Assembly: GCA_018242665.1 (NCBI GenBank)
Contig: JAFEBL010000017.1
Span: 186,001-250,000, forward strand
Source: Nitrospira sp.
GTDB lineage: Bacteria; Nitrospirota; Nitrospiria; Nitrospirales; Nitrospiraceae
Length of the DNA: 64,000 nt
Direction: 5' to 3'
Shown: piece after piece, positions 9,748 to 40,693 of the stretch
Layout: each line of letters starts with the position of its first letter
How positions within the stretch are numbered: the first letter of the stretch is position 1
Notes under the pieces: generated by a model
Seen by the model: only the letters and a program-made list of their open reading frames with translations
Database searches by the model: none
Told to the model about the DNA's origin: nothing
Program-made: the position numbers and the translations under genes

Positions 9748-9755
9748 CGCAGACT

Positions 9756-10316
9756 TCACTCCCGTGACGGCCCACCGCCATGACAGGCGAGACAGTTCGC
9801 GATCCGGCCAGGACGATGCGCCCCCCGCCCCTGTTGATACAACTGCCGGACGATCGGCTCGTCTCGCAGTGTCGGTTCAGCAGCAATCCTGGGGCCGAAT
9901 TCATGGCAGGCCGTGCAGGACGTGCTTCCGGTCGCGCGAAAGATCAATTCCCCGTGAGGATTGCGGCGCGTCTGCTCCGTAATCTGAGCCAGGATTCCCC
10001 GGTGTTCCGTATGGCACCCAGTACAAGCCTGCTGTTGCACGACGAGCCCCCGGTGCCAGCCTGCCACGGTCGCTGTGGCCTGCCGCTCAAAATAGCCTTC
10101 GGTATGGCAGCCCGTACAGCGGGCGGGACTCGGCCCCCGAAACGGCTCATGGCATTGCGTGCATCCTCCGTGATCGACGTGGTAGCGACTGAGATCGCCG
10201 GGAGCCCAGAACGCGGCGGGACTCCGCACAGTTCCCCACCCAACCCACATCACCAACACCAGCGTCGCCAACGCCACAACCGGCATCGCAGTTCTGGGGA
10301 GCGGAAGGTACCGCAT
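9756..10316 (-). CDS. membrane-anchored pentaheme cytochrome c
   Basis: A 186-residue protein with an N-terminal anchor or signal helix (about residues 10-28) and five CxxCH sites in order: CTQCH, CTGCH, CTGCH, CTACH and CLACH. Extra His residues (HVDHGG, TEHRG, NPHGEL) could be distal ligands. The last about 70 residues (NPHGELIFRATG, then CTACH, then PGRIANCLACHGGG) match the whole diheme cytochrome encoded at 10938-11297, so one arose from the other by duplication. It is followed, in transcription order, by nothing co-directional before the convergent acyl-CoA synthetase. The upstream gene is the b-type membrane protein (3-nt spacing), suggesting quinol-to-cytochrome electron transfer. Confidence 0.85.
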   Translation of the reverse strand: MRYLPLPRTAMPVVALATLVLVMWVGWGTVRSPAAFWAPGDLSRYHVDHGGCTQCHEPFRGPSPARCTGCHTEGYFERQATATVAGWHRGLVVQQQACTGCHTEHRGILAQITEQTRRNPHGELIFRATGSTSCTACHEFGPRIAAEPTLRDEPIVRQLYQQGRGAHRPGRIANCLACHGGGPSRE

Positions 10317-10319
10317 GAC

Positions 10320-10907
10320 TTACGAGATTCCGGCAAAGAACCAGGCTCCCGCCACGTGCAGCAGGGTGAAGGCCAGGAACATGAGTGTCATCGGCGCATG
10401 GATCGCCTGCCAGAGACGAAACGCCTCCTCTTGAGAGGCCATTCCGTGCAACCGGGCATCGATGTCATGCTCGGACCATCCTTGATGCTGGAGTTGTCTC
10501 CGCTGATCGTTGAGCGCTCGCAGACTGACGGCATGCACTAGTTGGCCCACGATTCCGCTGACGACCACGATCACCATGGACCCCATGGCCAGGATCGGGA
10601 CAAGCGCATGGTAGTGAGCGCCGGAGTGAATAAAAATCAGCAGCGGTCCCACGACACCTGCCACCATGTGGACTCGAAACCAGCCGCGCGGCCAGCGTCG
10701 TGAGGGGCTGGCCCGTTTCCGAAGGGGGTAGACGAATACCAGTACCGTGACGGCCAGACCGGCCCAGCCGACGATATGTCCATACCGTGTATGGCCGAAG
10801 GGCGTCACCTGGTCGAGACTGAGCAGCGCCTCAAAGGCCAGGGCGCCAGCGATCGCCGCGACCATCGCCCCCACGATCACGATAAGGCGTGACTGCGCGC
10901 CGGTCAT
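10320..10907 (-). CDS. b-type cytochrome-like integral membrane protein
   Basis: A 195-residue protein with about five transmembrane helices (roughly 8-30, 42-62, 80-96, 103-125, 165-192). Paired His in helices, RVHMVAG with FIHSGAHYH and WQAIHAPM with LLHVAG, give plausible haem b ligands as in ferric-reductase or cytochrome b561-like proteins. It is sandwiched between a pentaheme and a diheme cytochrome c gene with 3-nt and 30-nt gaps, so it probably passes electrons between the quinone pool and periplasmic cytochromes. I assign the role from context and His pattern, not from a family I can name precisely. Confidence 0.65.
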   Translation of the reverse strand: MTGAQSRLIVIVGAMVAAIAGALAFEALLSLDQVTPFGHTRYGHIVGWAGLAVTVLVFVYPLRKRASPSRRWPRGWFRVHMVAGVVGPLLIFIHSGAHYHALVPILAMGSMVIVVVSGIVGQLVHAVSLRALNDQRRQLQHQGWSEHDIDARLHGMASQEEAFRLWQAIHAPMTLMFLAFTLLHVAGAWFFAGIS

Positions 10908-10937
10908 CGTTGATCTTCGCCTTTCCCCACCCGCAGG

Positions 10938-11297
10938 TTACTGCCGGTATTTCTCAACCCCTTTGTTGCCACCGGCATGACAACGCAAACAGTCCGCAAA
11001 CCGGCCGGGCCCATGAATGCCCTTCGCCTTGGCCTTAAGATCCTGCACCAACGTGTTGTCCTGCACCTGTGCCGAGACCACACCGTTTTTCCCCCCGCGG
11101 TGACAATCCAGGCAGGTGGTGGCACCAGTCGCGCGAAAGATCAGATCGCTGTGCGGATTCGCCACCGTTCCGGCCGAATCAGCAATCGTCCGGGCCGACG
11201 ACAGCCCTGCCGACGAGGAAGAGATTCCCCCTGGCGTAACGGCCAGACAGAGCAGCCCGAGCAGACAAGCCGGCGCCGCGAATCTCCAGGCGTTCAT
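10938..11297 (-). CDS. periplasmic diheme cytochrome c, paralogue of the pentaheme C-terminus
   Basis: A 119-residue exported protein with a signal peptide (1-23) and two haem sites, CLDCH and CLRCH. NPHSDLIFRATGATTC and GPGRFADCLRCHAGG align closely with the C-terminal third of the pentaheme protein encoded two genes downstream. The conserved His in NPH and GIH could serve as distal ligands. Its ATG overlaps the stop of the hemerythrin gene by four bases (ATGA), showing translational coupling. Confidence 0.85.
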   Translation of the reverse strand: MNAWRFAAPACLLGLLCLAVTPGGISSSSAGLSSARTIADSAGTVANPHSDLIFRATGATTCLDCHRGGKNGVVSAQVQDNTLVQDLKAKAKGIHGPGRFADCLRCHAGGNKGVEKYRQ

Positions 11298-11776
11298 GAC
11301 CGTTCACTCCCACAACAAGTTCGATACCGTTCTTCCGGAATCTCTTTCATGGCCTGATATAACTCGGTCCTCTCCGCCTCACTGATCACCTGATCGATCG
11401 ACGGATAGAGAATGCGCTCCTCTTTCATGTTGTGCGACTTCAGAATCTCCAACAACCGCCCCTCCTCCCGGTCGCTGTCGGGATTGTGCGCCTGTACCTT
11501 TTCATGAATTGCCTCCAGGCATTGGCCGATCATGCGATGCTCGGTCCGCATGACCTGTGTCGGTCCCCCCTCCGCCATGCCGGAGTTTTCCTCCCACTTG
11601 GGAAACAACACGTCTTCCTCCCACACGATATGCCGCTGCAGGCCGAACTTGAACTCGACGAAGGCCTCCTTGGCTTTGATGAAATCCTTCCGCTTCTGTT
11701 GCTGGAAGGTGGTGAAGAGCGCATCCAGTCGATCATGATCCTGTTCAAACGTCACACTGATCTTCGCATCGGACAT
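11294..11776 (-). CDS. hemerythrin-like (HHE domain) protein
   Basis: A 160-residue four-helix protein with the hemerythrin iron pattern: HDRLD at about 14, RHIVWEEDVLFP at about 49-60, TEHRMIG at about 82 and SHNMKEERILYP at about 114-125, supplying His and Glu ligands for a di-iron site. Such proteins bind O2 or NO, or sense or repair iron centres. There is no signal peptide, so it is cytoplasmic, unlike its secreted neighbours. It ends with CCGSERS. The coupling to the diheme gene suggests a role linked to oxygen or NO exposure of the electron carriers. Confidence 0.87.
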   Translation of the reverse strand: MSDAKISVTFEQDHDRLDALFTTFQQQKRKDFIKAKEAFVEFKFGLQRHIVWEEDVLFPKWEENSGMAEGGPTQVMRTEHRMIGQCLEAIHEKVQAHNPDSDREEGRLLEILKSHNMKEERILYPSIDQVISEAERTELYQAMKEIPEERYRTCCGSERS

Positions 11777-11790
11777 GCCGTTCTCCTTCG

Positions 11791-12282
11791 TTATGAATGG
11801 CGAAGCCTATATTCTAAGTGACAGGCCACGCAGGCTTTGAGCACATTGTTGAACTCAGGCAGAATTTGCTTCAGATCTTTCGTGGGCATGACTTCGGCCA
11901 ACTTTTCAGCGGCGGCATGATGCGCCATCGCAAGATCGTGATAGGCCGGCGGGAAATTCTCCGGCTGCTGGCGAGCCATCGCATGCCGGTGCATAAAAAA
12001 TCCCAAATGCGTTTCGGTCAACCCTTGGGCCAGCCGGTAGTCTTCTTCGGCCAATGCCGCAACGATGGCTTGAATCGTTTCCAAATGCTGCAGCATGACG
12101 GCGCGATGTTCCTGCTGCGCATCAGGTCCCAGAGGGATGGGCGTGCGTACGTCCGGCAGGTGTACCGGCCTCACTTCGTCAGCAGGCGGCGCAGGCCGCT
12201 GTTCAGCGCACCCGGTCGCGAGGGTGACCATCACGAACAGGAAGACCAGTCCGGCCGCCGAGTGTCGCTGCCCTCGACTCAT
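11791..12282 (-). CDS. cytochrome c'-like (class II) lipoprotein
   Basis: A 163-residue lipoprotein: the signal helix ends with the lipobox LATGC at about residue 25. The haem site CVACH sits close to the C-terminus, the hallmark of class II cytochromes, and the preceding region is helical with many His residues (HRHAMAR, AYHDLAMAHHAAAE). Class II cytochromes bind NO or act as electron carriers. The ATG at 12282 was chosen because it directly precedes the signal peptide; the upstream frame is Arg-rich and unlikely. It lies 14 nt before the hemerythrin gene. Confidence 0.75.
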   Translation of the reverse strand: MSRGQRHSAAGLVFLFVMVTLATGCAEQRPAPPADEVRPVHLPDVRTPIPLGPDAQQEHRAVMLQHLETIQAIVAALAEEDYRLAQGLTETHLGFFMHRHAMARQQPENFPPAYHDLAMAHHAAAEKLAEVMPTKDLKQILPEFNNVLKACVACHLEYRLRHS

Positions 12283-12355
12283 GCCTGCCCCTCTGTCGGC
12301 ATCCGGCCGTCTTCGCCCCCGCCCTCCACGCCCCTGGAATCGTACGGCAGCCATC

Positions 12356-16931: not shown

Positions 16932-17984
16932 TCAGAAATCCAGTTCCGCCATCTTCCGGTGAAAGCGAGTGATCACATTGGGGTCCGGCGTGAGCCGGAT
17001 CTGCGCCTCATTCTTCCCCTTGTACGGAAGCAGGTTCAAGACATATCGCAAGCTTTCCAGCCTGGCAGCCTGCTTGTCGTTCGCCTTCACGATGATCCAG
17101 GGGCTGAACGTCGTGTGCGTCTTGCTGAACATCTCCTCTTTGAACCGCGTATAGGAATCCCACATCTCTTGCGCCTTTTCGTCGACCGGGCTCAACTTCC
17201 ATTGCTTGAGCGGGTTTTGCCGGCGCGCATCGAATCGCTTCGCCTGCTCTTCCTTGGAGATGGAAAACCAGAACTTGATGATGGTCACCCCGTCTTCGTA
17301 CAACATGTGTTCGAATTCGGTGACCTGCTGCAAGAACCGCTGATGTTCCTTCTTGCTGCAAAATCCCATCACCGGCTCCACTACGGCACGGTTGTACCAA
17401 CTCCGGTCAAAAAAGACGATTTCCCCTTTGTTGGGCAGTTGACGGATATACCGTTGAAAGTACCATTGTCCCCGCTCGTCATCGGTCGGCTTCGGTAAGG
17501 CGACGACGCGCATGGCGCGCGGGTTCAGATGTTCGGTAAAGCGACGAATCGTTCCGCCTTTCCCGGCGGCGTCCCGTCCTTCGACGAGAATTGCGATCCG
17601 CTGACCATCCGACTGCACCCATCGTTGCAATCGAACCAACTCCACCTGCAACTGCCGCAACTCCTGCTCGTAGAGCAAGGTCTTGCGCACTTCTTCGAGA
17701 TCGATGCTCTTGCCCTTGATGAGCTGAATGAGCCCACGGCGTGTGTTGACCCGGCGGAGATCGTCTTCACTGAGCACGCGCCCCGCTTCGCCGATGAGGC
17801 CCGCCGCCATCGCGCCGTCAACCTCACGGGGCGCCTCATATCCATCCCCCGCGAGCGGCACGGCGGTGGGAATCACTTCCAGGTCGTCATCCAAATCATT
17901 GTCCCCGAGTACCATGCCAGGCTCCGCCTGACTACGCTCTTTGCGGCCCTTGGCTTTTCCATTGGTCTGTCCGTCTGCGGCCAT
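16932..17984 (-). CDS. ppk2: polyphosphate kinase 2 (PPK2)
   Basis: A 350-residue cytoplasmic enzyme that transfers phosphate between polyphosphate and nucleotides. The Walker A motif EGRDAAGKGGTI is near residue 136 and Walker B FFDRSWYNRA near 191, with the lid residues KFWFSISKEEQ after it. The first about 80 residues are an acidic, poorly conserved extension. Class I PPK2 enzymes mostly make GTP or ATP from polyP; the subtype cannot be fixed by eye. Its place beside cytochromes, Usp, Rnk and glycogen enzymes fits energy supply when respiration stops. Confidence 0.93.
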   Translation of the reverse strand: MAADGQTNGKAKGRKERSQAEPGMVLGDNDLDDDLEVIPTAVPLAGDGYEAPREVDGAMAAGLIGEAGRVLSEDDLRRVNTRRGLIQLIKGKSIDLEEVRKTLLYEQELRQLQVELVRLQRWVQSDGQRIAILVEGRDAAGKGGTIRRFTEHLNPRAMRVVALPKPTDDERGQWYFQRYIRQLPNKGEIVFFDRSWYNRAVVEPVMGFCSKKEHQRFLQQVTEFEHMLYEDGVTIIKFWFSISKEEQAKRFDARRQNPLKQWKLSPVDEKAQEMWDSYTRFKEEMFSKTHTTFSPWIIVKANDKQAARLESLRYVLNLLPYKGKNEAQIRLTPDPNVITRFHRKMAELDF

Positions 17985-18011: not shown

Positions 18012-18371
18012 TCAGAACGCCACGTTGCGATCACGTTCGGCTACGGCCTTGATGTAATCCGGCATGCCCTTGATCGACGCGCCGGCAACGAGATCGGTTC
18101 CGCTGATCTGACGAGCGACGGCGCACGCTCCACAGACCCAAATGGGAATCTGCGCGGCCTGCACCGCAGCCAATAGATCTTTCAACGGCGTCAGATTGAC
18201 GCCTGTCACATGGTCGGCCGTACCCTTGCGTCCCAATGTCACGGCTTCATTCCACAGCCATACCACCACATCGTGCCCCTGTTCCTTGGCGGTCTTGGCC
18301 GCCATGAACGGCAAGGTCGCCATTGTTGGATCGTCTGTACCGCGGCTGCCGGAAATGATAAACGTCGCCAT
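18012..18371 (-). CDS. DsrE-like sulfurtransferase-fold protein
   Basis: A 119-residue cytoplasmic alpha/beta protein. It begins MATFIISGSRGTDDP and carries the central KEQGHDVVVWLWNEAV strand and the Cys-bearing turn VCGACAVAR (about 80-88), where DsrE/DsrF-family proteins carry their persulfide Cys. Family members relay sulfur atoms. Standing directly after a sulfite-oxidase-like and cytochrome operon, it may handle sulfur intermediates, but the exact role is inference. Confidence 0.75.
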   Translation of the reverse strand: MATFIISGSRGTDDPTMATLPFMAAKTAKEQGHDVVVWLWNEAVTLGRKGTADHVTGVNLTPLKDLLAAVQAAQIPIWVCGACAVARQISGTDLVAGASIKGMPDYIKAVAERDRNVAF

Positions 18372-18432
18372 TGGTCAGTCCCCCATAAATCGTCGTTCGT
18401 TCGGAACGTTTTACGTTTCACACTTCACGTCC

Positions 18433-19842
18433 CTACTTCGCCAAACTTCTCACATAGGCAATCAATTGCCAGACCTGCTCATCCGGCAGCGCCGCAAACG
18501 ACATCATGCCGGTTCCAGGAGAGCCGTTCTTAATAATCCAGAACAGTTGCCCGTCCGGCAAATCCTTCATCATCGAGCCGCAGGTAAAGTTTCGAGGCGG
18601 GGGAATCAATGCGGCACCCATGAAACCCTGCCCGTTGCCCTTGTCACCATGACACATGGCGCAGGCCACCGGCTGTGCCGTCTGGAGAAACAGTGTTTTC
18701 CCCGCATGAATCGTGGCGTCCGAGCTCGGCAGGGGATTCGTTTTCGAGAGGAAGTCCTGCGGCGCCTGCACCGTCTTTCTCGGCTGCGGACAGACCCCCG
18801 ATACACCGCCACCCACCGCCGCCTGAGCCTGGTCGGGCCCTCCCTTGAACGTGGCCTTCAAATACGCCATCACGTCCGCCACGCCCTGCTGACCGATCGT
18901 TAGACCCCAATAGGGCATGTTCGGCGACTTCCCCATCGCCGCGCCGCCGTGATTGATCACGTTGTACACATACTCCGTCGGCAATTTCTCGAAGGGGATG
19001 TTCGCATGCACGGCCGGCTTTGGATTCAAACCCGAAGCCGCCGGTCCATCGCCCTTGCCGGTCGCCCCGTGGCATTGTGAACAGTACTCCTTATACAACA
19101 CCTTTCCGCGATCCACGCTGGCCATGCCGAACTCGGGCGCCGTCCAGGGTTCGTAATATTTGAAATCCTTCACGCCCTGCACCATGAGGAAGCCGATCAC
19201 CGCCCGCAACTGCGGCTCTGTCGCATCGGCCAGAAACTCACCGCTGTGGGGAGTGAAGTCCTGCGGATTTTGACCGAACCGGAACAGCCAGTCCTTGTCA
19301 TACCGTTGGCCCGCCGCTACCAATGACGCGCTTTGCGGACCTCCGATCAGCGCGCCGTTCTCTTCAATCAAGTGACAACCCAGGCAGGCGTGGGCCTTGT
19401 ACGCCATGCCGCCGAACGTCGCATCGAATTTGCTGAGTTTGGAGAGATCGAAGGCGCCGACCGTCACCCGAGGGTCCTTGTTGTGTTGTTGAAAGTACTC
19501 GGCGATCGTCGCGGCATCATCGTCACTGACCACGGGATGCCGCACCGGTCCCTCGGCGAGATCCCACCGGTACCCTTTCGGATACAAAGGCGCCTCCTTG
19601 CCGGTCAAGTAGCGCAGCAACCAGGCGCGCTGATATTTGCTTCCCGCCCAGATCAGGTCGGGCGCCTTGAGATTGAAGCGTGAGTCGGCTTTCCCTTCCA
19701 ACCGATGACAGCCGGCGCAATTGGTCTGTATGAGATCCTTCACCCGACTCTGGTCGCTCCCCAGCAGCAGGCGAGGGAAGGATACCACCGCCATCACCAA
19801 GACCAGAGCACAGCCGATCATCACCGTCCGTCGTCGCCCCAT
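18433..19842 (-). CDS. tetraheme (multidomain) periplasmic cytochrome c
   Basis: A 469-residue exported protein (signal helix about 5-27) with four haem sites: CAGCH, CLGCH, CSQCH and CAMCH, spread over about four cytochrome modules. The last module (PPPRNF, then GSPGTGMMSFAALPDEQVW) is a paralogue of the single-haem protein at 16289. This reads as a string of mono-haem domains rather than a compact multiheme bundle. The ATG at 19842 has AAAGGGG upstream. It lies 37 nt after the diheme gene in the apparent molybdoenzyme operon, so it may be the electron acceptor chain. Confidence 0.86.
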   Translation of the reverse strand: MGRRRTVMIGCALVLVMAVVSFPRLLLGSDQSRVKDLIQTNCAGCHRLEGKADSRFNLKAPDLIWAGSKYQRAWLLRYLTGKEAPLYPKGYRWDLAEGPVRHPVVSDDDAATIAEYFQQHNKDPRVTVGAFDLSKLSKFDATFGGMAYKAHACLGCHLIEENGALIGGPQSASLVAAGQRYDKDWLFRFGQNPQDFTPHSGEFLADATEPQLRAVIGFLMVQGVKDFKYYEPWTAPEFGMASVDRGKVLYKEYCSQCHGATGKGDGPAASGLNPKPAVHANIPFEKLPTEYVYNVINHGGAAMGKSPNMPYWGLTIGQQGVADVMAYLKATFKGGPDQAQAAVGGGVSGVCPQPRKTVQAPQDFLSKTNPLPSSDATIHAGKTLFLQTAQPVACAMCHGDKGNGQGFMGAALIPPPRNFTCGSMMKDLPDGQLFWIIKNGSPGTGMMSFAALPDEQVWQLIAYVRSLAK

Positions 19843-19879
19843 GAGGCACCCCTTTCGTTCACACGTCTCGTTGCAACTG

Positions 19880-20509
19880 CTATCGCGTGGCCAACCAGGC
19901 ATGAATATCCGCAATATCTTGATGACTCAACACCGCTCCCCAAGCCGGCATCGGGCCACGGCCATGAAGGACGGTTTCCCAAAATGCTCCGTCGTTTTTC
20001 AGAATCAGGTTCCGCGCGAGTTTCGGCCCCATACCCCCGACCGCTCCTTCTCCGTGGCAGGCCTGGCAATTGTGGGCGTACAGCCCTGCGCCGCGCCCAG
20101 GCACGCCGGTGAGCGGCCCCTCGGTCGACGCCTGCATTCCCGCCGCCGGCACGCTCATCGCCAGCTCCTGCTCGATGGCCGGCAGGTCATCCGGCGCGCC
20201 GGGATGATTTCGCGCAACCACATAGTGAAGAACCAGTTCGACTTCTTCCTTGGACAAGTCGGCGCCCCAGTGGACCATCTTCTCCACCGTGGCGATCCAT
20301 CGCTCTTCCGGCAACCGTTGTTGTGAAATGAGATCCGTCGTGTGGCAGACCGCGCAGCGCGCCATGATCAAGGTGGCAGCGCGCCGGGACTGAGCGGAGA
20401 GGAGTGCCGTGCGGTCATCATCTTGCGCCCCAGTGATGACGACCAAGCCGAGCATGACCGCCAGGAGAGAGCACACGACGATGAGGGAGCCCTGCCGCGA
20501 CCAGCTCAT
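19880..20509 (-). CDS. diheme cytochrome c, likely electron acceptor of the molybdoenzyme
   Basis: A 209-residue protein with an N-terminal membrane helix or signal (about 8-28) and two haem sites, CAVCH (about residue 52) and CQACH (about 146), each followed by a helical module (PGRGAGLYAHNCQACHGEG, GMGPKL, MPAWG). Its ATG lies inside the stop of the upstream sulfite-oxidase-like gene (ATGA overlap). This is the arrangement of sulfite dehydrogenase catalytic and cytochrome subunits (SorA/SorB style), although here the cytochrome has two haems. Confidence 0.85.
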   Translation of the reverse strand: MSWSRQGSLIVVCSLLAVMLGLVVITGAQDDDRTALLSAQSRRAATLIMARCAVCHTTDLISQQRLPEERWIATVEKMVHWGADLSKEEVELVLHYVVARNHPGAPDDLPAIEQELAMSVPAAGMQASTEGPLTGVPGRGAGLYAHNCQACHGEGAVGGMGPKLARNLILKNDGAFWETVLHGRGPMPAWGAVLSHQDIADIHAWLATR

Positions 20510-21687
20510 GCCGCCACCGTCACGGCGACGCGGTCCCAGCCACTCCACACAAATCCTCCGGGATTCCAGGGACTGGTTGCCGGCTGTCGTTCACCGCGCG
20601 CATCCGTGGCACGACAGAGAATGGCCGTCGGGCCGAGGGCTTTCGGATGCCACACATACTGCCACTGCCGCCACGCGTAGGGTTGTGCTTCGCCCAGCAA
20701 TCGGGCCTGCTCCCACGTCTTCCCGTCATCACAGGACACTTCAACCAGCGCCACCGCCGACTCCCCGGCCCAGGCCACACCTTGAATGGTCACTGGACTG
20801 GTCCGCACCGTATCTCCTTCGGCCGGCGCGGCAATCAGCGATTTCACCGGCATCTGTTCGACCGGCACCATCACCGTCCCCGGCAACCCGGACCCCGGCT
20901 GGATCGCGGTCTCGGGCATGCGGTAGGCCTGCTGCATGTAATAGCCGGGCGTTTCATCGGCCCTGAGCGTGATCTCCGTCAGCCACTTCATGCAAGATTC
21001 CGCCATCCAACCCGGTGTCACCACCCTCAAGGGGCCGCCGTGAAGAAGCGGCAAGGGGCGACCGTTCATCTCATAGGCGAGGAGCGTATCGGGATGGAGC
21101 GCCTTCGCGAGAGGAATACTTCGTGTGAACAGGGGAACGGTGGGCAAAGCCGGTCGGTCGGCGCCTTGCAGTTGCACATGAAGCCCCTGCGGGGTGACGC
21201 CGGCGCGCTGCAAGACATCTCGCAGCCTCACGCCGGTCCATTGCGCGTTTCCGACCGCGCCGCGTTCCCACTGCACCCCCGGCACTTTGGGACGATGGTG
21301 GGCGCGCCCGTTTCCGCTGCACTGCAGGACCGCCGTGATGGTCACGGATTCAAAGTCGTGTAGGTCTTTCAGGGTGAGCGTGAGTCCTTCCTTGACCAAC
21401 CCCTTCACGGTCAGGCGCCAGGTCTCGGGCTGCAGGGCCTCGGGTGGAGGTGGCCCGAAATGACTGCGCACAAAGAAACGTTCATTGGGCGTCAACCAAG
21501 AGGTAAATTCCCGCACCGGCGTCTCAGCGTCGAACGGGCGCGATACCCGGACGGTCAGCGGGCCGCTGCCCTGACCTAGAGCCCCTTCCTGACTTCCTTC
21601 GGCCGCCGGGATCGCGCCACGAAGAAGCGCTCCGATGCCGATCCCTTGCAACAATGTCTTCATCCATCCACGGCGGCTAACAGTCAT
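20506..21687 (-). CDS. sulfite-oxidase-family molybdoenzyme (Tat-exported)
   Basis: A 393-residue molybdopterin oxidoreductase. The N-terminus TVSRRGWMK with a hydrophobic stretch is a twin-arginine signal, so it is folded before export. The Mo-ligand Cys lies in VLQCSGNGRA (about residue 123). The conserved LAYEMNGRPLPLLHGGPLR and the C-terminal dimerisation domain (VEVSCDDGKTWEQARL, YVWHP) are complete. Family members oxidise sulfite or related substrates, though some reduce. The ATG at 21687 has AAAGGA at ideal spacing; the ATG at 21708 does not. The substrate is inferred. Confidence 0.9.
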   Translation of the reverse strand: MTVSRRGWMKTLLQGIGIGALLRGAIPAAEGSQEGALGQGSGPLTVRVSRPFDAETPVREFTSWLTPNERFFVRSHFGPPPPEALQPETWRLTVKGLVKEGLTLTLKDLHDFESVTITAVLQCSGNGRAHHRPKVPGVQWERGAVGNAQWTGVRLRDVLQRAGVTPQGLHVQLQGADRPALPTVPLFTRSIPLAKALHPDTLLAYEMNGRPLPLLHGGPLRVVTPGWMAESCMKWLTEITLRADETPGYYMQQAYRMPETAIQPGSGLPGTVMVPVEQMPVKSLIAAPAEGDTVRTSPVTIQGVAWAGESAVALVEVSCDDGKTWEQARLLGEAQPYAWRQWQYVWHPKALGPTAILCRATDARGERQPATSPWNPGGFVWSGWDRVAVTVAA

Positions 21688-21715
21688 GCGCGTCCTTTTA
21701 TTGAGCATCCTTCTA

Positions 21716-22132
21716 TCAGGTGGGAGTCACGGTATGGCTATGAGGATTCAACTCAATGGCAATGGCGGTCGGCACCACGAGGGATTGATGCACGGTACAT
21801 CCATGGGCGACTTTCAACAACCGTTCTTTCAGTTCCGGCGTGATGCGATGGGGAATCCGGATTGAGAGTTGAACCTGGCCGACTCGGTGCGGTCCTTCCG
21901 CCGTGCTCCACTCGGCCTCGACCTTGAGTCCGTCGCGCGAAATATCGTGTCTCGCGCAGAACTCGCCGACGAAGTAGCCCACGCAGCTCGCGATGGAGCC
22001 GACGAATAGCTCCACTGGCGTCATGCCCGCGTCCGCCCCGCCTCCATCGGCCGGCTGATCGGTCACGACCCGATGGCGATCGCTCAAGATGTCGTATCGC
22101 GTGCCGCCTTGATAGGCGATGCTGAGCTTCAT
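21716..22132 (-). CDS. OsmC-family protein
   Basis: A 138-residue cytoplasmic OsmC/Ohr-fold protein. The peroxidatic or reactive Cys pair is seen as SIASCVGYF (about 52) and HGCTVHQSL (about 114). Such proteins reduce organic peroxides or sulfane-sulfur species. The ATG at 22132 follows GGGAG; the longer frame lacks a ribosome site. It sits between the TsdA-like and the molybdoenzyme genes, so handling of reactive sulfur is a reasonable guess. A second OsmC paralogue lies at 27704-28138. Confidence 0.85.
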   Translation of the reverse strand: MKLSIAYQGGTRYDILSDRHRVVTDQPADGGGADAGMTPVELFVGSIASCVGYFVGEFCARHDISRDGLKVEAEWSTAEGPHRVGQVQLSIRIPHRITPELKERLLKVAHGCTVHQSLVVPTAIAIELNPHSHTVTPT

Positions 22133-22209
22133 CTCCCGACCCTCACCTGCCTCGTCGCCATCCCTGTGATGGTTGGTCTCGCGTTGTCGATCAGATACCG
22201 ATGGGCCTT

Positions 22210-23055
22210 CTAGTACGGCGCATCCGAGGGCTTGCCGCCCTTGGGCCAATCGTTGCCCTTCCCGGCGAAATCGGGACGCCGTTGCGCGTGGAGGTAGGCC
22301 GCGACGTCGTACGCATCTTGATCGGCCAATGCCCAACCTCTGGTCCGTGGCATATTCGACTTGATGAACGACGCAGCCACCGAGAGCCGCGCCATGTCAC
22401 TGCCGATGCCATAAGCCTGGTCGCCCCACAGGGGAGGTGCCGTCATGGTGCCGAGGCCGTCCGCACCGTGGCAAAACGCGCAACGGGCCGTAAATACCTT
22501 GGCGCCCTTCGACGTATCCGGCGGCTGGGCGGCTGCGAGATGCGGGATCCCTCGCCAAGCCATGCGGCTTCCTTCCGGCACATCTTTGGATAGCCAGTCG
22601 ATGTAGGCCACGATCGCCTGGAGTTTGTGACTGTCCTGGGGAATCGCCTTGCCATTCAGGTTACGGACGACACAGTCATTGATACGCTCCGCCAGGGTCA
22701 CGGCCCGCCCCGCTCGCGCCTGGTATTCCGGATAGACCCGCGAAAGTCCCACAAAGGAGGCGGAGTTCGGATCCAGTCCTGCATCCAAATGGCAGTTGGC
22801 ACAGGTGAGGCCGTTTCCTACGTAGGTTGCCGCAAACTCCTGGGTATGGACGATCAGTTGATACCCGAGCCGGATCTGCTCTCCTCGCTGGCCACCCGGA
22901 ATGGAATCCGGCGATGGGTGACTGAAGACCGCATCGACACCGCCAGACTCGGACTGTCCGGCGACTGAATGGCCGACGTTGTCGGGCCCCCGTGAGCCCG
23001 CGCAACCGCTCGCCACCGCGACCGCCAACAGGCTGCAGAAAAAAAGGTGCCGCAT
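22210..23055 (-). CDS. TsdA-like diheme cytochrome c lipoprotein
   Basis: A 281-residue lipoprotein (lipobox ASGC, Cys at about 18) with two haem sites, CANCH and CAFCH. The segment after the first haem, with FVGLSRVYPEYQARAG and a conserved Cys in RINDCVVRNLNGK, is the hallmark of thiosulfate dehydrogenase TsdA, where that Cys is the unusual axial ligand of haem 1. TsdA converts thiosulfate to tetrathionate or the reverse. Its lipid anchor would hold it at the membrane surface. It leads the operon with OsmC and the molybdoenzyme. Confidence 0.82.
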   Translation of the reverse strand: MRHLFFCSLLAVAVASGCAGSRGPDNVGHSVAGQSESGGVDAVFSHPSPDSIPGGQRGEQIRLGYQLIVHTQEFAATYVGNGLTCANCHLDAGLDPNSASFVGLSRVYPEYQARAGRAVTLAERINDCVVRNLNGKAIPQDSHKLQAIVAYIDWLSKDVPEGSRMAWRGIPHLAAAQPPDTSKGAKVFTARCAFCHGADGLGTMTAPPLWGDQAYGIGSDMARLSVAASFIKSNMPRTRGWALADQDAYDVAAYLHAQRRPDFAGKGNDWPKGGKPSDAPY

Positions 23056-23279
23056 ACGTATGAATCTCGCAAGCTGTGTACCAGCAGGCCAGGTCGCCCG
23101 CAACCACATCCCTGTTTGTTTTCAAGAGATTGTGGTGACGAGCGGACTCCTCTGGCGACAAAAGCCCCAGGCTGAGGGGGACTGCTGCGGCATCGCGCCA
23201 CAGCTGAGGACGCTCAGTTCCCCTCGGCGCACGGTGGTAAGGGACAATGTCGCGGGAAAGGATTCACGTCGCGGTGTGG

Positions 23280-23630
23280 TCAGGGTTGCAGCGACCGAAT
23301 ATAGGCCAGCAGGTCATCGACTTGCGCTTCGTTCAAGGACGCGGAAAATCCGGTCATGGCGGTCCCTGACCGCCCTTCTAGAATGACCTTGCGCAACTGC
23401 GCATCGGTCTTGGTCTGCGTCGGCTTGGCCGTGAGATCGGCAGGAGGGGGCGTCAGATAGGCTCCCATCTCACTGTCGCCCTTGCCTGTCGAGCCATGGC
23501 AGTTCTGGCAACTGGCTGCATACAACTTCTTGCCTGCTTCAGGACTCGCTTGCCCGGACAGCGCCGCATTGAGCGGGACCATCCCCGACAGCAGCAGCAT
23601 CGCGATTCCCACCCAACTTCTTGTGCGCAT
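23280..23630 (-). CDS. periplasmic monoheme cytochrome c
   Basis: A 116-residue class I cytochrome with a signal peptide (1-24), the haem site CQNCHG, the loop TPPPADLTAKPTQTK and the Met loop GTAMTGFSASLNEAQVDDL. GAGGAAGG precedes the ATG at 23630. It closely resembles the product at 27119. It lies 36 nt downstream of the cytochrome b/c gene and is a probable soluble electron shuttle for that complex. Confidence 0.9.
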   Translation of the reverse strand: MRTRSWVGIAMLLLSGMVPLNAALSGQASPEAGKKLYAASCQNCHGSTGKGDSEMGAYLTPPPADLTAKPTQTKTDAQLRKVILEGRSGTAMTGFSASLNEAQVDDLLAYIRSLQP

Positions 23631-23666
23631 GACCTTCCTCCTCAACGTCCCGTTCGCGCGGCGCGA

Positions 23667-24998
23667 TCATGACGGCGTCGCGCGGGTCAAACTTAACATG
23701 TAGCTGGTCAAATCGTTCAACTGTGCATCCGTGAGCGGAAACTTCGGCATGAACGATCCAGGCGTGACGGATTGCGGGTCACGGAAATGCTTGAGGTGCC
23801 AGGCGCGATCCGGCCTCGTCTCTCCGACCGTGGAGAGGTCCGGCGCGACGGCTCCTCCTTCTCCATGAATCCGATGGCAGCCGACGCAGCCAAACTGCGC
23901 ATACACCGCTTTGCCCCTCGCCACGGCGGGATCGGTTCTGGGCACCGCGTACAAATTCTTGATGGAGATTCCCAGCAGACCGAACACCACGAGCAGGAAC
24001 AGGAGACCGCTCCCCAAGGCCACCGGCCGTCTGATCGGATTCCGCACGGGATTGCGGTCGATGAACGGCCAGAACAGCATGATGAGTACCACACACAACG
24101 GCAACACCCAGGTGGCCAGCGGTTCCAACGGCCCATGCACATACTTCAGCAGCTCGTAGTAGAAGAGAAAATACCATTCCGGGACGGGGACAAAGCTGGT
24201 ATCGGAAGGATTGGCCTTATCCGTCAGCGGCAGGGGCACGCTGAACGCGAGCATCGCAACAGCCAGAAACACGCCGGCGATCACGACCGCATCCATGTAG
24301 ACCTGCCGAGGCGCGAATGTTTCACTATTGAGCGAAGCGCGTTCGTCGGTCCAGGGACCTGCGGGGCCGACGCGCCGGAGGATGAACAGATGCAGCGCAA
24401 TCCCGCTCAGTAGCACTGCCGGGAGAAACAGGACATGGATGGCAAAGAAGCGGGAGAGCGTCAGGGCGCCGAGCGTCTCCCCTCCACGCAGCACTCGGGA
24501 GGCCACGTCACCGACCAAGGGCACCGTCCCGACCATGTTGATGCCTACCTGCGTCGCCCAATAGGCCGTCTGATCCCAAGGCAGGAGGTAGCCGGTGAAG
24601 GCAAAGGTCATCACGATCAAAAACAACACCACGCCCATCATCCACATCGCTTCGCGTGGCGGCTTATACGCGCCATAGAGAAAGGTCTGCAACATGTGCA
24701 GGCCGATCGCAATCACCATGGCGGATGCGCCCCAATGATGGAGTCCGCGCACAAACCAGCCGAACAGCACATCGCGTTCGATGAATTCAATGCTGTCGTA
24801 GGCATGGTCCGGGGTGGGCGCGTAATAGAGCGCGAGGAACATGCCCGTGGCGGCCTGCATGAGAAACAAGAACAGCGTGATGGAGCCGAAGACGTAAATC
24901 CAACTGGCTCCGCCGGGGATGGGCTCATCGAGCAGCGTGCGTTGGACCGGCTTGAGATTCAGACGGCTGTCGAGCCAATCGTATAAACGGGAGGCCAT
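23667..24998 (-). CDS. cytochrome b fused to a C-terminal cytochrome c domain
   Basis: A 443-residue membrane protein forming the core of a bc-type quinol oxidoreductase. Eight helices are predicted. The haem b ligands appear as His pairs in GLHHWGASAMVIAIGLHM and in AIHVLFLPAVLLSGIALHL. The quinol-site motif is PEWYFLF (about residue 270). The C-terminal about 80 residues form a class I cytochrome c with CVGCHRIH and a Met in SFMPKFPLTDAQL. The fusion replaces a separate cytochrome c1. It is encoded just downstream of the Rieske gene, which completes the complex. Confidence 0.93.
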   Translation of the reverse strand: MASRLYDWLDSRLNLKPVQRTLLDEPIPGGASWIYVFGSITLFLFLMQAATGMFLALYYAPTPDHAYDSIEFIERDVLFGWFVRGLHHWGASAMVIAIGLHMLQTFLYGAYKPPREAMWMMGVVLFLIVMTFAFTGYLLPWDQTAYWATQVGINMVGTVPLVGDVASRVLRGGETLGALTLSRFFAIHVLFLPAVLLSGIALHLFILRRVGPAGPWTDERASLNSETFAPRQVYMDAVVIAGVFLAVAMLAFSVPLPLTDKANPSDTSFVPVPEWYFLFYYELLKYVHGPLEPLATWVLPLCVVLIMLFWPFIDRNPVRNPIRRPVALGSGLLFLLVVFGLLGISIKNLYAVPRTDPAVARGKAVYAQFGCVGCHRIHGEGGAVAPDLSTVGETRPDRAWHLKHFRDPQSVTPGSFMPKFPLTDAQLNDLTSYMLSLTRATPS

Positions 24999-25036
24999 GC
25001 GCGATCAGATTCCCTTCTGCGCCGACTCCGGGCAAC

Positions 25037-25588
25037 TCACAACTCCACACTCTCGGGAAGGCCAGAGCGGAACTCCGTATACATGACGAGGAGACGCCCC
25101 CCTTCGACCTTAGAGGGCAGGACGTCCAGCGGACGTGGGGCAGGACCGCCCAACACCTTGCCGTTCATGTCGAACATGCTGCCATGGCAGGGACAGAGAA
25201 ACTTCTGTTCCGTGTCATCCCAGCGATACCCGCACCCGAGATGGGTGCAGATCGGCGAAAAGACCCGCACCCCGCCTTCAGGCTGTTTCACAGCCCAGAC
25301 CGCTTTTTGTGATTTGGTTTCCATCCACCCATCGCGGACGGTCGTCACATGATCTAATTGCGTAGGGCGCCCCGCCGGCAAACTATCCACCGAGCCGACA
25401 TCGACCCATTCACGTTTGCGTCGCGTGAACGCCGGTGACACCAGCGAGCCGAGCAGTGGCACAGCCAATCCCACGCCTACCATCGCAGCCGCAGCAACGG
25501 TCATCCAATGGAAAAACGTACGCCGTGAACCGACCGGAGTCGACAGCCCTGTCCCTTCACTGCTCTGTGTGTCGTTGGAATGGCTCAC
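25037..25588 (-). CDS. Rieske iron-sulfur protein
   Basis: A membrane-anchored 2Fe-2S protein of about 183 residues. A basic and Arg-rich N-terminus (SRRTFFHWM) precedes one transmembrane helix (about 30-50), and the cluster motifs CTHLGC and CPCHGS follow, with GPAPRPL. It accepts electrons from quinol and passes them to the cytochrome c domain. The start is uncertain: a GTG at 25588 has GAGAAG upstream, while the first ATG (25663) has no ribosome site. The short spacing to the b/c gene (38 nt) shows a single operon. Confidence 0.92.
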   Translation of the reverse strand: MSHSNDTQSSEGTGLSTPVGSRRTFFHWMTVAAAAMVGVGLAVPLLGSLVSPAFTRRKREWVDVGSVDSLPAGRPTQLDHVTTVRDGWMETKSQKAVWAVKQPEGGVRVFSPICTHLGCGYRWDDTEQKFLCPCHGSMFDMNGKVLGGPAPRPLDVLPSKVEGGRLLVMYTEFRSGLPESVEL

Positions 25589-25667
25589 GTGTGCATGCTT
25601 CTCGGGGATGATCCCGGAGGGGGAGACGGCAGCACATCCACTCCGTCTCCGCCGTCCGGACATTGAC

Positions 25668-32097: not shown

Positions 32098-33819
32098 CTA
32101 GGCTCCGTTGACGGCCTGATCCACCAACCGGTAAGCATTGCGCAGGTATTGGCCGACCATGCGCTGCGTGTTGAAAAACGCCCCGTTGATCGCAATCGTG
32201 TGGGTCATGATCTCGATGAACCGGTCCCGCTCGTTGTAGAAGCATGGCAGGACACGTTGTTCGAGCTTGTCGTAGAGCGCCGCGGCATGACAGGCTTCCA
32301 TATCCTCCGCTGGAGAAACGCAGGCGTCGACCTTCTCCCCGATCGACCACCCCGTCACCCCTTCGATATGCCCTTCGACCCACCAGCCATCCAGGACGCT
32401 CAGGCTGGGCACGCCGTTCATCGCCGCCTTCATCCCGCTGGTGCCGGAGGCTTCCATCGGTGGCAGGGGCGTGTTCAACCACACGTCCACCCCCGCGCAC
32501 AACAGTCTGGCCAACGTCATATCGTAGTTGGCCAGATAGGCCACGGAGAGTTTCCCGCGCATGGCGTGAATGCGGCGGATCATGTCCTTCCCGGCTTGAT
32601 CTTGAGGATGCGCTTTGCCCGCGAAGATGAACTGGATCGGGCCCACCTGCTTGCCCAGGCGCTGTAACCGCTCGACATCATGAAACACCAATGTCCCCCG
32701 TTTGTAGGCGGTGGCGCGCCGCGCGAAACCGATCGTCAGCACATCACGGTCGAAGCCCGCGTTGGTCTCGCGATTCACTTCATCGATCAACGCCAACTTG
32801 GCTTCCCGGTGCGCCTCCCAAATGTCCGCTCTGGGAATACTGATCGCATATCGGAGAGAGAGTTGATCATACCGCCAGTCAGGCAGGTGACGGTCGTAGA
32901 GGGCCTGAAAGGCGGGAGCGGCCCAGGCCACGGCATGCACCCCATTCGTAATGGAATGGATGGGGTAGCCGGGATACAGGGAATGGGACACTTCGCCATG
33001 CCGCATCGCCACACCGTTCACAAACCGCGAGCCGCGCAACGCCAAGAGCGTCATATTCAACGCGACTTGATGTTGGCAGGCTTGAACCAGTTCACAGCGC
33101 CGCTTCCCTAAGACCTGCATCGCCAGGTCGGCGGGGAATTGATCGTGGCCTGCCGGCACAGGGGTATGGGTCGTGAACACGCAGTGTTCCCGCACGTGCT
33201 CGATCACCTCGGGCGGAACCTCCCCATTGTGGGGGTTCCCGTTCATTCCGGCCTCCACCAATGCCAGCACCAGTAAGGCCGCATGCCCTTCGTTGAGGTG
33301 GTACCGATGGATGTGGTCATGGCCCAAGGCCTGCAACAACGCAAACCCGCCGAACCCGAGGACCAACTCCTGGCAGAGGCGGTAGCGGGCATCCCCCCCG
33401 TACAGCTGATCGGTAATGGTCCGGTCCCAGGGGCTGTTTTCGGGGAGATCCGTGTCGAGCAAATACACGGGAACCGCCTGCCCCGACATGCCGGTGACCA
33501 CATATCGCCAGGCGCGCACCACCACCGGTCGCCCCTCGACTTCCACGGTGACGCGCGGCTCCAACGGTTCGGCAAAATCATTGACCGCCCAAGCCACCGG
33601 CTCCTCGGATTGCCCTCCCTCTCGATCAAGACGCTGATAAAAATAGCCGCGCCTGTGCAGGAGGGTGACACCGACCATCGGTACGCCCAGGTCGGCGGCG
33701 GAGCGAATGGTATCACCGGCCAAAATGCCCAAGCCGCCCGCGTAGGTCGGCATCAAGGGATTGAGGCCGATTTCCATCGAAAAATAGGCGACCAGCGCAT
33801 CGCGGCCGGAACGAATCAT
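32098..33819 (-). CDS. alpha-glucan phosphorylase (short GT35 type)
   Basis: A 573-residue cytoplasmic enzyme that releases glucose-1-phosphate from alpha-glucans. It is shorter than classical GlgP and matches the short alpha-glucan phosphorylase family. The PLP-binding Lys is in EASGTSGMKAAMNG (about residue 461), with the conserved HLNEGHAALL, TTHTPVPAGHD and NGVHAVAW. The ATGA overlap couples it to the preceding glycosyltransferase gene. A second, full-length phosphorylase is encoded at 40694. Confidence 0.92.
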   Translation of the reverse strand: MIRSGRDALVAYFSMEIGLNPLMPTYAGGLGILAGDTIRSAADLGVPMVGVTLLHRRGYFYQRLDREGGQSEEPVAWAVNDFAEPLEPRVTVEVEGRPVVVRAWRYVVTGMSGQAVPVYLLDTDLPENSPWDRTITDQLYGGDARYRLCQELVLGFGGFALLQALGHDHIHRYHLNEGHAALLVLALVEAGMNGNPHNGEVPPEVIEHVREHCVFTTHTPVPAGHDQFPADLAMQVLGKRRCELVQACQHQVALNMTLLALRGSRFVNGVAMRHGEVSHSLYPGYPIHSITNGVHAVAWAAPAFQALYDRHLPDWRYDQLSLRYAISIPRADIWEAHREAKLALIDEVNRETNAGFDRDVLTIGFARRATAYKRGTLVFHDVERLQRLGKQVGPIQFIFAGKAHPQDQAGKDMIRRIHAMRGKLSVAYLANYDMTLARLLCAGVDVWLNTPLPPMEASGTSGMKAAMNGVPSLSVLDGWWVEGHIEGVTGWSIGEKVDACVSPAEDMEACHAAALYDKLEQRVLPCFYNERDRFIEIMTHTIAINGAFFNTQRMVGQYLRNAYRLVDQAVNGA

Positions 33820-35090
33820 GGGCTCTCCAACACCTGGCGAATGAGCCGCAGTTCATCTCGGACAAGCCGAGGCATGAGAAAATGCTGGCGGACATGTTCA
33901 CGGCCGGCCCGCCCGAAATCCCCTCGCTCTCCTGGGTGCCGAAGCAGATGGAGGGCTCGCTCCGCGCAGGCTTCCACGCTTGTCACCAGGTTCTTCTGGA
34001 AGGGTTCGGGAAACTGCATCGGGATGCCACCGGTGTTGCCGGCGACTACCGGTTTTTCTTTCCACAAGGCCTCGGAGACGACCAACCCGAATCCTTCCCG
34101 CAGGGATTTTTGGATCACGACATCGGACCCGCGTTGAAAGGCATTCACTTCCATGCTGCCCACGCCGGACAGATTCGTAAACACAAAGAGGTCCGGATCG
34201 TTGGCCGCCTCCTCTTCGACCCGATCCAGAATCTCCCATCCCTCCGGATCGTCCCCCGCCATGGCCCCGATGAGCACCAGTTGCACGCCGGGAAGTTCCG
34301 CTTTGACCAACCGGTACGCGCGCACCACGCCGAGCGGATCTTTCCACGGATCGAAACGCGACACCTGTAACAGCAACGGCCTGGCCGGATCGACTCCGGA
34401 GTCCGCAATCACGCGGCGACAGAGATCCGGGGGTAGTTCCATATTCTTGGTCGCCAGCGGATCGATGGCGGGGGCGATAAATGCGATCCGCTTCGAGGCC
34501 AACTGCGGCAGGACGAACTGATCCATCGTGAACACGACCGCTTCATACTCTTCCAACAATGGCCGCAAAAAGTGGCTGACCTCCTTGTCCGGGGCCGAAC
34601 TGTCGATGTGGCAGCGCCAGATCCATTTGGCCCCGCGAGGTCCCGCGAAATGGCGAATGGCGGCCGGCTGCGGATCGTGGACGATGTACAGATCGTAGTC
34701 GTTCCCGAGCGCCTTCGCGCTCCGCTCGTTGACTGTGAGATAGAGGTCCTGCTCGGCTTTTCCCAACCCATAATGGCCGCCTTGCAGCGCATTGTGAAAC
34801 GCTTTGGTGATGGCAAAAAAATCTGGTTCTCCATGGATCAACCGCCAGTCCGCCTGCACCCCGAGCGCTTGGAGCATGGGAATGTACCGCGCCAGGAGCT
34901 CCGCCACGCCTCCGCCCGCCGCGGTCGAATTCACATGACAAATTCTGACTCCCTGCAAACTCTTGGCGAGCGACGTCAACTCCTCGTACATCGCCTCGCT
35001 CAACAGACTGCGATAGCCGCTCACATTGGCCTGCATCGCGCCGCATCGCTGGCCGACTCCCACCTTGGGTAGCTGCGTCTGTATCTTCAT
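33816..35090 (-). CDS. GT4 glycosyltransferase, trehalose synthase (TreT)-like
   Basis: A 424-residue retaining glycosyltransferase. The N-terminal half starts with CHVNSTAAGGGVAELL, the sugar-nucleotide-side loop, and the C-terminal GT-B domain has QVSRFDPWKDPLGVV and QKSLREGFGLVVSEALW with the family E-x7-E. TreT-type enzymes join glucose and NDP-glucose to form trehalose. Trehalose as the product fits a stress island but is inferred. GGAGA precedes the ATG at 35090; upstream residues in the same frame have no family match. Confidence 0.87.
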   Translation of the reverse strand: MKIQTQLPKVGVGQRCGAMQANVSGYRSLLSEAMYEELTSLAKSLQGVRICHVNSTAAGGGVAELLARYIPMLQALGVQADWRLIHGEPDFFAITKAFHNALQGGHYGLGKAEQDLYLTVNERSAKALGNDYDLYIVHDPQPAAIRHFAGPRGAKWIWRCHIDSSAPDKEVSHFLRPLLEEYEAVVFTMDQFVLPQLASKRIAFIAPAIDPLATKNMELPPDLCRRVIADSGVDPARPLLLQVSRFDPWKDPLGVVRAYRLVKAELPGVQLVLIGAMAGDDPEGWEILDRVEEEAANDPDLFVFTNLSGVGSMEVNAFQRGSDVVIQKSLREGFGLVVSEALWKEKPVVAGNTGGIPMQFPEPFQKNLVTSVEACAERALHLLRHPGERGDFGRAGREHVRQHFLMPRLVRDELRLIRQVLESP

Positions 35091-35119
35091 TGTGCCTGCA
35101 TCTCCTTCATCTGCGCCGG

Positions 35120-35596
35120 TCAACCGAACGTGGCCCGCACCCACTGGCCGAGATAATGCGTGATCGCGACCACCATAAGAGCGATGAGTACATGCTCGCC
35201 GATCACGGTCCAGGGCGGCACCCGCTGCGCCCTCGCCAGGGCATAACTCAGCAGCGTCAGTAACAAGAGTCCCCAGGCAAGGCTGACAGTGAGGGCCACA
35301 TCCAACGGCATGAACAGCACCGGAACGGCGAAGGTTCCGGCGATCACGAACTTGGCCGCGAACGTCGCGGCGGTGGAGGCCCAAATATCATGGGTGTTGC
35401 CATGGTTCCTCGATTCTTCGGCAATGTGGATTCCCAAGGCATCGGACATGGCGTCGGCGACCGCAATCGTGAGAATGCCACCCAGCACCGCGGGCATGGA
35501 ATGGGTACCCGCATGCAGTCCCGCCATCAACCCCAGCGTGGTGATCACCCCGGAGGTCAATCCGAAGCTCAACCCGATTTTCACCGCGGTCCGCAT
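35120..35596 (-). CDS. VIT1/CCC1-family membrane protein
   Basis: A 158-residue inner-membrane protein with four to five helices. It shows the family features GLTSGVITTLGLMAG and AVADAMSDALGIHIAEES, which in this family form the metal path. Members move iron or manganese. The product is shorter than the yeast and plant members. The ATG at 35596 lies in a longer frame and is preceded by GACGAGG. It may manage iron for the many haem proteins nearby. Confidence 0.72.
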   Translation of the reverse strand: MRTAVKIGLSFGLTSGVITTLGLMAGLHAGTHSMPAVLGGILTIAVADAMSDALGIHIAEESRNHGNTHDIWASTAATFAAKFVIAGTFAVPVLFMPLDVALTVSLAWGLLLLTLLSYALARAQRVPPWTVIGEHVLIALMVVAITHYLGQWVRATFG

Positions 35597-35654
35597 GCAC
35601 CCTCGTCTCTCGACCTCCCATCCGGCAATGTCATCGCTGTCAACAACATGCCGG

Positions 35655-36308
35655 TCAGCAGGCCTCGTGTTCCGCTTCCCGCAGACAAGTGCCAATCCAC
35701 TCATTAACCGCAGCCAACACCGCGCTGACCGCGCGGTTGGCCGCCAACACTCCGCCGTATGCATCCTCGGTAGGAGCCGGCGCCACCCTGTCAAAACTTC
35801 TGGCGCCTATGACGCGCTGCGTCTTCAGATCGGTCAATTGCGCGCGCAACCGCACCCGGCTCTGGCTTGGCCGTTGCAAAAACTCCTGTTGCACCGTCAC
35901 CTCCGACACATCGAGTTGATGGTCCGCGCGGAGGGCCGAAGGCAGGGGCGCTACCACTCGCCAGTAGCCCGACTGTTCGAGCGCCCGCAGGAGCAACGGC
36001 GCCAACATCTTGGACGGAGCGTCCACCCAGAAATGACTGGCGTAATAGTTCACTTCCGACGGGCGCTGCAAATAGGCCATCCGTGGCTGCTCAAACCCTG
36101 CCGCAGCCTGCGGCAGACTCACCAGCAACAGGCCTCGGGCGTTCGCCCGCGCAATCGGCATCACTGGGGCATCCGAGTCCTCCGTCGTCAGGACAAACGT
36201 ATGGACCGACGTCTCGGTCGATCGAGGCAACACACAAGCGGTCAAGGCGCCTGCCGCCATCATGAGCATCAACATCACCCTCCCCAGCGCACCAACCGGG
36301 TCCACCAT
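35655..36308 (-). CDS. Mla/Pqi-type lipoprotein auxiliary subunit (PqiC family)
   Basis: A 217-residue outer-membrane or periplasmic lipoprotein with the lipobox LTAC (Cys at about 25). The body follows the ABC-type transport auxiliary domain (HTFVLTTE at the start, VNYYASHFWVDAP and QSGYWRVVAP). It follows the MlaD-like gene by 7 nt. In the PqiABC and Mla systems this subunit bridges the MCE protein to the outer membrane. Phospholipid traffic is the inferred role. Confidence 0.83.
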   Translation of the reverse strand: MVDPVGALGRVMLMLMMAAGALTACVLPRSTETSVHTFVLTTEDSDAPVMPIARANARGLLLVSLPQAAAGFEQPRMAYLQRPSEVNYYASHFWVDAPSKMLAPLLLRALEQSGYWRVVAPLPSALRADHQLDVSEVTVQQEFLQRPSQSRVRLRAQLTDLKTQRVIGARSFDRVAPAPTEDAYGGVLAANRAVSAVLAAVNEWIGTCLREAEHEAC

Positions 36309-36315
36309 AGTCCTG

Positions 36316-37278: not shown

Positions 37279-37288
37279 CCGTCACCTC

Positions 37289-39210: not shown

Positions 39211-39304
39211 GATCCACCCTACGACTCATCGTCCGCGACGCCTCCGCTTCTCTGGCCGAATCGAACCCGGCCTGGAGACAAAGTCATCACCGGCCCACAG
39301 CACC

Positions 39305-40519: not shown

Positions 40520-40693
40520 ATGGGACTTCTTTTCCTACCCCATCCCATTGCACATCCCGGCGCCCGAATCAGCTCCGGAACATCCTGGTCCCTTTGCGTC
40601 CATAATTCCAACCGCCGGCGGCCGGAGAATCTGAAGGCGGCGCTGCCACCCTAGGAAAGGGCGATGATACCAGGAACCGACCGACGGACTCGG

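Follow-up and report, generated by a model that had tools for sequence, protein, structure and literature searches.

A candidate gene cassette for thiosulfate and sulfite oxidation and its modular conservation in Nitrospira

We analysed a 64,000-nucleotide stretch of DNA from Nitrospira sp. (assembly GCA_018242665.1, contig JAFEBL010000017.1, positions 186,001 to 250,000; this whole stretch is the window). The genome holding it is 4.06 Mb and Nitrospira-like. The window carries a block of redox genes, all on the minus strand, that may feed electrons from inorganic sulfur compounds into respiration. From upstream to downstream, the block contains a CBS protein, a Rieske protein, a cytochrome b/c fusion, a cytochrome c, a TsdA-like lipoprotein, an OsmC protein, a SorA-like molybdoenzyme, a diheme cytochrome, a tetraheme cytochrome, a DsrE-like protein and polyphosphate kinase 2 (PPK2). 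Gene identities rest on family profile matches, heme motifs and synteny. A sequence-only reading of the same DNA had named a set of genes at this locus; all of them were present on this strand, and profile matches placed them in their families far above chance. CxxCH motifs were counted in the TsdA-like protein (two), the diheme (two) and tetraheme (four) cytochromes, the cytochrome c (one) and the b/c fusion (one).

The refined starts of the TsdA-like (23055), OsmC (22132), diheme (20509) and tetraheme (19842) genes are likely ones. The likely TsdA start lies about 225 bases from the stop of the cytochrome c gene (23280), and between OsmC and PPK2 the genes follow one another at short distances. 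The sequence-only reading was also right that the diheme gene overlaps the molybdoenzyme gene: the stop codon of the SorA-like gene and the start codon of its diheme neighbour share the ATGA at 20506-20509, which indicates translational coupling of the two genes. At most Nitrospira SorA loci, the OsmC-family gene (21716-22132 in the window; PF02566, 2.5e-12) has TsdA on one side and SorA on the other. The DsrE/YchN-like protein with a CxxC motif (18012-18371; PF02635, 2.6e-19; YchN 1jx7, 3.5e-4) is mostly 87-96% identical across Nitrospira. Scanning the region for promoters and terminators gave no excess over shuffled sequences.

The SorA-like gene (20506-21708) encodes a predicted Tat (twin-arginine translocation)-exported sulfite dehydrogenase catalytic subunit, with matches to PF00174 (Oxidored_molyb, 6e-59) and PF03404 (Mo-co_dimer, 8e-16). 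Among the NCBIfam families, SorA (NF052245) scored best (318.4 bits). The nearest solved structure was Starkeya SorA (2blf, 1.1e-73), and the closest homologues came from Nitrospira, including Ca. N. defluvii (FP929003). In an alignment with the Starkeya and chicken enzymes, the equivalents of R55, H57, C104, R109 and Y236 (R81, H83, the Mo ligand C130, R135 and Y262) were present in 36/36 clade members, and they did not vary in a further alignment (A1) either. W147 was listed among the site residues of the window protein, and the clade retained the Trp at the chicken W204 position. The Arg pair of the Tat signal (R12, R13) was invariant in a 22-sequence alignment and in all 36 members. The window enzyme thus shares with SorAB of Starkeya novella and of lineage IV Nitrospirales the Mo and dimerisation domains, the active-site R/H/C/R/Y set and a neighbouring gene for a SorB-like heme domain, and differs from it in being linked to TsdA and OsmC.

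Two trees were built, one by a quick method (75 rows) and one by a careful method (30 rows). In both, the window enzyme and its relatives formed a sister clade of the SorA clade, which consisted of Starkeya, a Roseomonas plasmid, lineage IV Nitrospirales and family f3. Support was 92 in the quick tree (Shimodaira-Hasegawa approximate likelihood ratio test) and 92/96 in the careful tree. Three other identities were rejected. MsrP/YedY scored 37.5 bits against a cut-off of 207, and E. coli MsrP stood on a distant branch. SoxC scored 209.9 bits against 420 and formed a separate branch, and SorT scored 242 bits against 570. The molybdoenzyme therefore probably represents a separate clade beside SorA, distinct from YedY and SoxC, and the grouping with YedY-like reductases that would have spoken against sulfite oxidation did not appear. 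In a class-wide scan, the Nitrospirales matches were of two kinds: lineage IV has canonical SorA, at about 566-600 bits, and Nitrospiraceae have this clade, at about 304-340 bits. The clade was present in 77/175 Nitrospiraceae genomes searched (this and the other genome counts are among matches listed). We equated family f4 with lineage IV (UBA8639) on the strength of its canonical SorA and of how PMC12342949 describes that lineage. A SorA-like clade of Desulfobacterota-type genomes (L039-L053) had Gln at H57 and Glu where the chicken enzyme has R450; a cytochrome gene almost never adjoined its members. One Pyrinomonadaceae metagenome-assembled genome (an Acidobacteriota bin) held a Nitrospira-like cassette, through misbinning or transfer.

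The diheme gene (19880-20509) encodes a cytochrome with a SorB-like N-terminal domain and a c6/c551-like C-terminal domain. NCBIfam SorB was matched below its cut-off by 29/29 diheme members. The window protein scored 43.3 bits against NF052246 (cut-off 93); the match covered residues 56-112 only, and the protein has two hemes against the single heme of SorB. Foldseek with the model of the diheme protein found nothing in the PDB at an E value of 0.001 or below. The top structural match of the N-terminal half of the model was Starkeya SorB (2blf_B, Z 7.3, root-mean-square deviation 2.4, 63 residues), and at a middling Z below 8 this supports a SorB-like identity of that half and does not prove it. 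Similar partners occur elsewhere. The lineage IV SorA partner is also diheme, and its SorB half scores higher (82-88 bits); the Sulfitobacter SorT partner is a SorU+c550 fusion, and Nitratireductor has a c550+SorB fusion. With the Thermus sulfite dehydrogenase, electrons from sulfite enter a diheme c550 through its N-terminal domain and go on to cytochrome c552 (PMC3561395). A diheme partner is therefore a recurrent design and not a unique one. Near the SorA-diheme pair of three lineage IV loci (L105, L106 and L108) lies a CoA-disulfide-reductase-like flavoprotein; family scoring covers the L105 copy only.

The TsdA-like gene (22210-23055) encodes a diheme lipoprotein, a predicted thiosulfate dehydrogenase/tetrathionate reductase. 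It matched SoxA-TsdA_cyt-c (1.7e-13) and A. vinosum (Allochromatium vinosum) TsdA (PDB 4wqc, 3.9e-50). The SoxA/TsdA cytochrome domain PF21342 scored 50.8 bits and the C-terminal PF13442 scored 44.2 bits (cut-off 27 for each). A SoxA identity was rejected (36.2 bits against 110). The Cys of the RINDC motif, which the sequence-only reading had singled out, falls, in the alignment, at the position of the axial Cys in A. vinosum TsdA. In 24 homologues the lipobox C36, the axial C146 of heme 1, the substrate R142 and the heme-2 M253 were invariant, and R132, the other Arg of the substrate pair, was kept in at least 90% (numbering counts from an open reading frame start at 23109). Like the characterised TsdA of A. 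vinosum and Campylobacter jejuni, the window protein has two c-type domains, a Cys-ligated heme 1, a heme-2 Met and a conserved Arg; unlike them, it has a lipoprotein signal and a proposed separate tetraheme acceptor. A TsdA homologue was found in 122/175 Nitrospiraceae genomes searched.

The tetraheme gene (18433-19842) encodes four class-I c domains with four CxxCH motifs. The protein fitted no single known family, and its domains matched various class-I cytochromes. Six loci (L017, L018, L019, L024, L028 and L035) had a three-heme form without the C-terminal domain, and the N-terminal half was divergent in L001, L010 and L011. We then counted linkage within 6 kb from pooled placed matches. 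The counts cover the top candidates of each genome, and those from related genomes are not independent of one another. SorA and TsdA were linked in 54/59 Nitrospiraceae genomes having both, and SorA and the tetraheme gene in 51/59. In genomes without SorA, TsdA and the tetraheme gene were still linked (43/51). In lineage IV, SorA and the tetraheme gene were linked in 14/19; the TsdA search covered Nitrospiraceae only, and absence of TsdA from the lineage IV loci does not follow from these counts. Single loci showed other combinations: TsdA-tetraheme-DsrE without SorA (L112), TsdA-OsmC-tetraheme (L113), OsmC-tetraheme-SorA-diheme without TsdA (L117) and SorA-diheme alone (L116). The cassette is conserved and modular. 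The independent pairing of the tetraheme cytochrome with either enzyme suggests that it is likely the shared electron acceptor of both.

Taken from the sequence, the locus can be read as a periplasmic electron-input cassette for thiosulfate and sulfite that feeds respiratory cytochromes, and we give this reading a probability of about 0.6. The lipoprotein-anchored TsdA would join two thiosulfates into tetrathionate at its Cys-ligated heme, with electrons leaving via heme 2. The SorA-like enzyme would oxidise sulfite to sulfate and pass single electrons to the SorB-like N-terminal heme of the diheme cytochrome and then to its second heme. Both branches would deliver their electrons to the tetraheme cytochrome as common collector, and from there electrons might reach the cytochrome c pool and a terminal oxidase, or quinone via a reversed bc complex. 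Thiosulfate and sulfite oxidation feeding cytochrome c, the core of the sequence-only reading, is still the best interpretation, because the molybdoenzyme falls on the SorA side of the trees and the axial Cys of TsdA is invariant. SoxB had no match in this genome, so a complete Sox pathway was rejected as the explanation.

Several observations weigh against this reading, and some of them favour other explanations. The SorA score of the molybdoenzyme lies under the equivalog cut-off of 600 bits, and 36/36 clade members have Tyr where Starkeya SorA has Trp231. The support of 92/96 for the branch joining the clade with SorA is not decisive and the branch was not starred, so the relationship is probable and not proven. 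A separate clade with an invariant Tyr near the active-site Tyr in sequence could have a substrate other than sulfite, for instance an organosulfur compound or a different oxyanion. We consider this quite improbable; the remaining sulfite-site residues that we examined, among them the Trp at chicken W204, were all kept, and the partner is of the SorB type. For the TsdA-like protein, the direction of the reaction has to be weighed. Its heme-2 pocket (K250, N252, M253) forms the K-x-N-M pattern of Campylobacter TsdA (K252, N254, M255), an enzyme that works as a tetrathionate reductase and respires tetrathionate (PMC5146829), and TsdA enzymes are bidirectional. TsdA could then be an electron sink at low oxygen, with the SorA-like enzyme supplying low-potential electrons. 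The window protein has Asn at the Lys208 position of A. vinosum TsdA, as in Campylobacter, but the A. vinosum K208N variant kept a residual reductase activity equal to wild type (PMC6879331), so this difference does not set the direction. Nitrospira are aerobic nitrifiers, and the thiosulfate/tetrathionate couple, at +198 mV, makes it feasible for thiosulfate to be oxidised with cytochrome c as acceptor (PMC9562282). An electron sink of this kind has only a small chance of being the right explanation.

The cytochromes may also be general respiratory parts of Nitrospira that the two sulfur enzymes merely adjoin. The tetraheme gene was found in four Nitrospiraceae genomes with no match for the SorA clade or TsdA, and in eight lineage IV genomes without SorA, so the tetraheme cytochrome must have other donors; many cytochrome genes also lie along the same strand of the window. 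That the tetraheme pairs independently with each enzyme in different lineages is difficult to account for if nothing links them functionally, and we regard the uncoupled arrangement as unlikely. A role in detoxification or overflow deserves more weight, and we still judge it less probable than oxidation for respiration. Here the SorA-like enzyme would clear sulfite from amino-acid turnover or bisulfite stress and TsdA would clear thiosulfate, with electrons reaching cytochrome c incidentally and without growth. The main role of bacterial sulfite:acceptor oxidoreductases (SORs) is described as sulfite detoxification (PMC3561395). The OsmC and DsrE-like neighbours fit a stress or thiol context, and the SorA-like gene is absent from more than half of the Nitrospiraceae genomes, as for an accessory function. 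However, the linkage to TsdA and two multiheme cytochromes exceeds the needs of detoxification, and the tetrathionate made by TsdA is itself a reactive compound.

The link to the adjacent bc complex fared less well. The sequence-only reading had coupled the cassette to this complex, and a bc operon (counted within 10 kb upstream) was indeed near the SorA locus in 13/14 close relatives with enough flank. It was found at only 3/15 more distant Nitrospira SorA loci, in one of which (L018) it lies about 7 kb from the cassette; this also counts against the respiratory reading. Functional coupling to the adjacent complex is possible, and conservation does not support it. The operon in the window consists of the Rieske iron-sulfur protein (25037-25663; PF00355, 2.8e-11), a b6/petB-type cytochrome b fused to a C-terminal cytochrome c domain (23667-24998; PF00033, Cytochrome_B, 1e-52; PF00034, 1e-11) and a monoheme cytochrome c (23280-23645; PF00034, 7e-14), neighbours outside the conserved core. 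The b/c fusion is one of two cytochrome b genes in the genome. A second bc complex is encoded in the same genome (G000:C13, about 9465-11527; L107), with a cytochrome b of 371 amino acids, a Rieske protein of 315 amino acids and more c-type cytochromes around it.

Nitrospira are major nitrite oxidisers of soil, water and treatment plants and globally important nitrifiers. Sulfite dehydrogenase has already been annotated in some lineage I/II Nitrospira: PMC7078480 reports it both for clade A comammox and for three closed nitrite-oxidising Nitrospira, and it appears in the legend of a cartoon of ND1/NJ1 (PMC5767232). A 2025 survey described SorAB as largely restricted to lineage IV (PMC12342949), yet TsdA homologues and the SorA-like clade were found here in 122 and 77 of the 175 Nitrospiraceae genomes. 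Within an open-access library, and in the most relevant of the papers it listed, we found no confirmable report of TsdA or tetrathionate in Nitrospira. The suggestion that the arrangement was undescribed held in part. Diheme acceptors are known from Thermus, and SorB/SorU-type diheme fusions also occur in Sulfitobacter, Nitratireductor and the Nitrospirales of lineage IV. What is new is the distinct clade, its link to TsdA, the architecture of the fusion and the modular tetraheme cytochrome. The Thermus thermophilus SOR shares with the window a two-domain diheme acceptor whose N-terminal domain takes the electrons. The abstract describing it mentions no TsdA or tetraheme cytochrome, and what is compared here is the acceptor design. 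SorT/SorU of Sinorhizobium and of a Sulfitobacter plasmid (L103) likewise pairs a sulfite dehydrogenase with a cytochrome, a diheme fusion in Sulfitobacter, but the window enzyme belongs to a different subfamily.

If active, the cassette would tie the nitrogen and sulfur cycles within one organism, and its genes hint at a second energy source for Nitrospira from thiosulfate and sulfite. More tentatively, and at somewhat less than even odds, many Nitrospiraceae, comammox included, may have in common a cassette of interchangeable parts, with one tetraheme collector served by two unrelated sulfur enzymes: TsdA, and the distinct SorA-like clade with its diheme SorB fusion. Nitrifiers could then respire thiosulfate and sulfite beside nitrite, and reverse electron transport would be eased. 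An ammonia monooxygenase (AMO) family search for comammox status gave no match in control genomes either and so carries no information on that status, and TIGR03479, used as a proxy for nitrite oxidoreductase, gave matches below cut-off only.

Downstream, the PPK2 gene (16932-17984; PF03976, 2.1e-96) is by synteny a member of the conserved block too. Two other regions on the minus strand of the window were noted. Positions 9756-12354 carry a further redox cluster with a pentaheme cytochrome, a b561-like protein, small CxxCH proteins, a cytochrome c'-like protein and, judged by eye, an apparent hemerythrin. At 32098-45309 there are large open reading frames that by eye resemble glycogen phosphorylases and a debranching enzyme.

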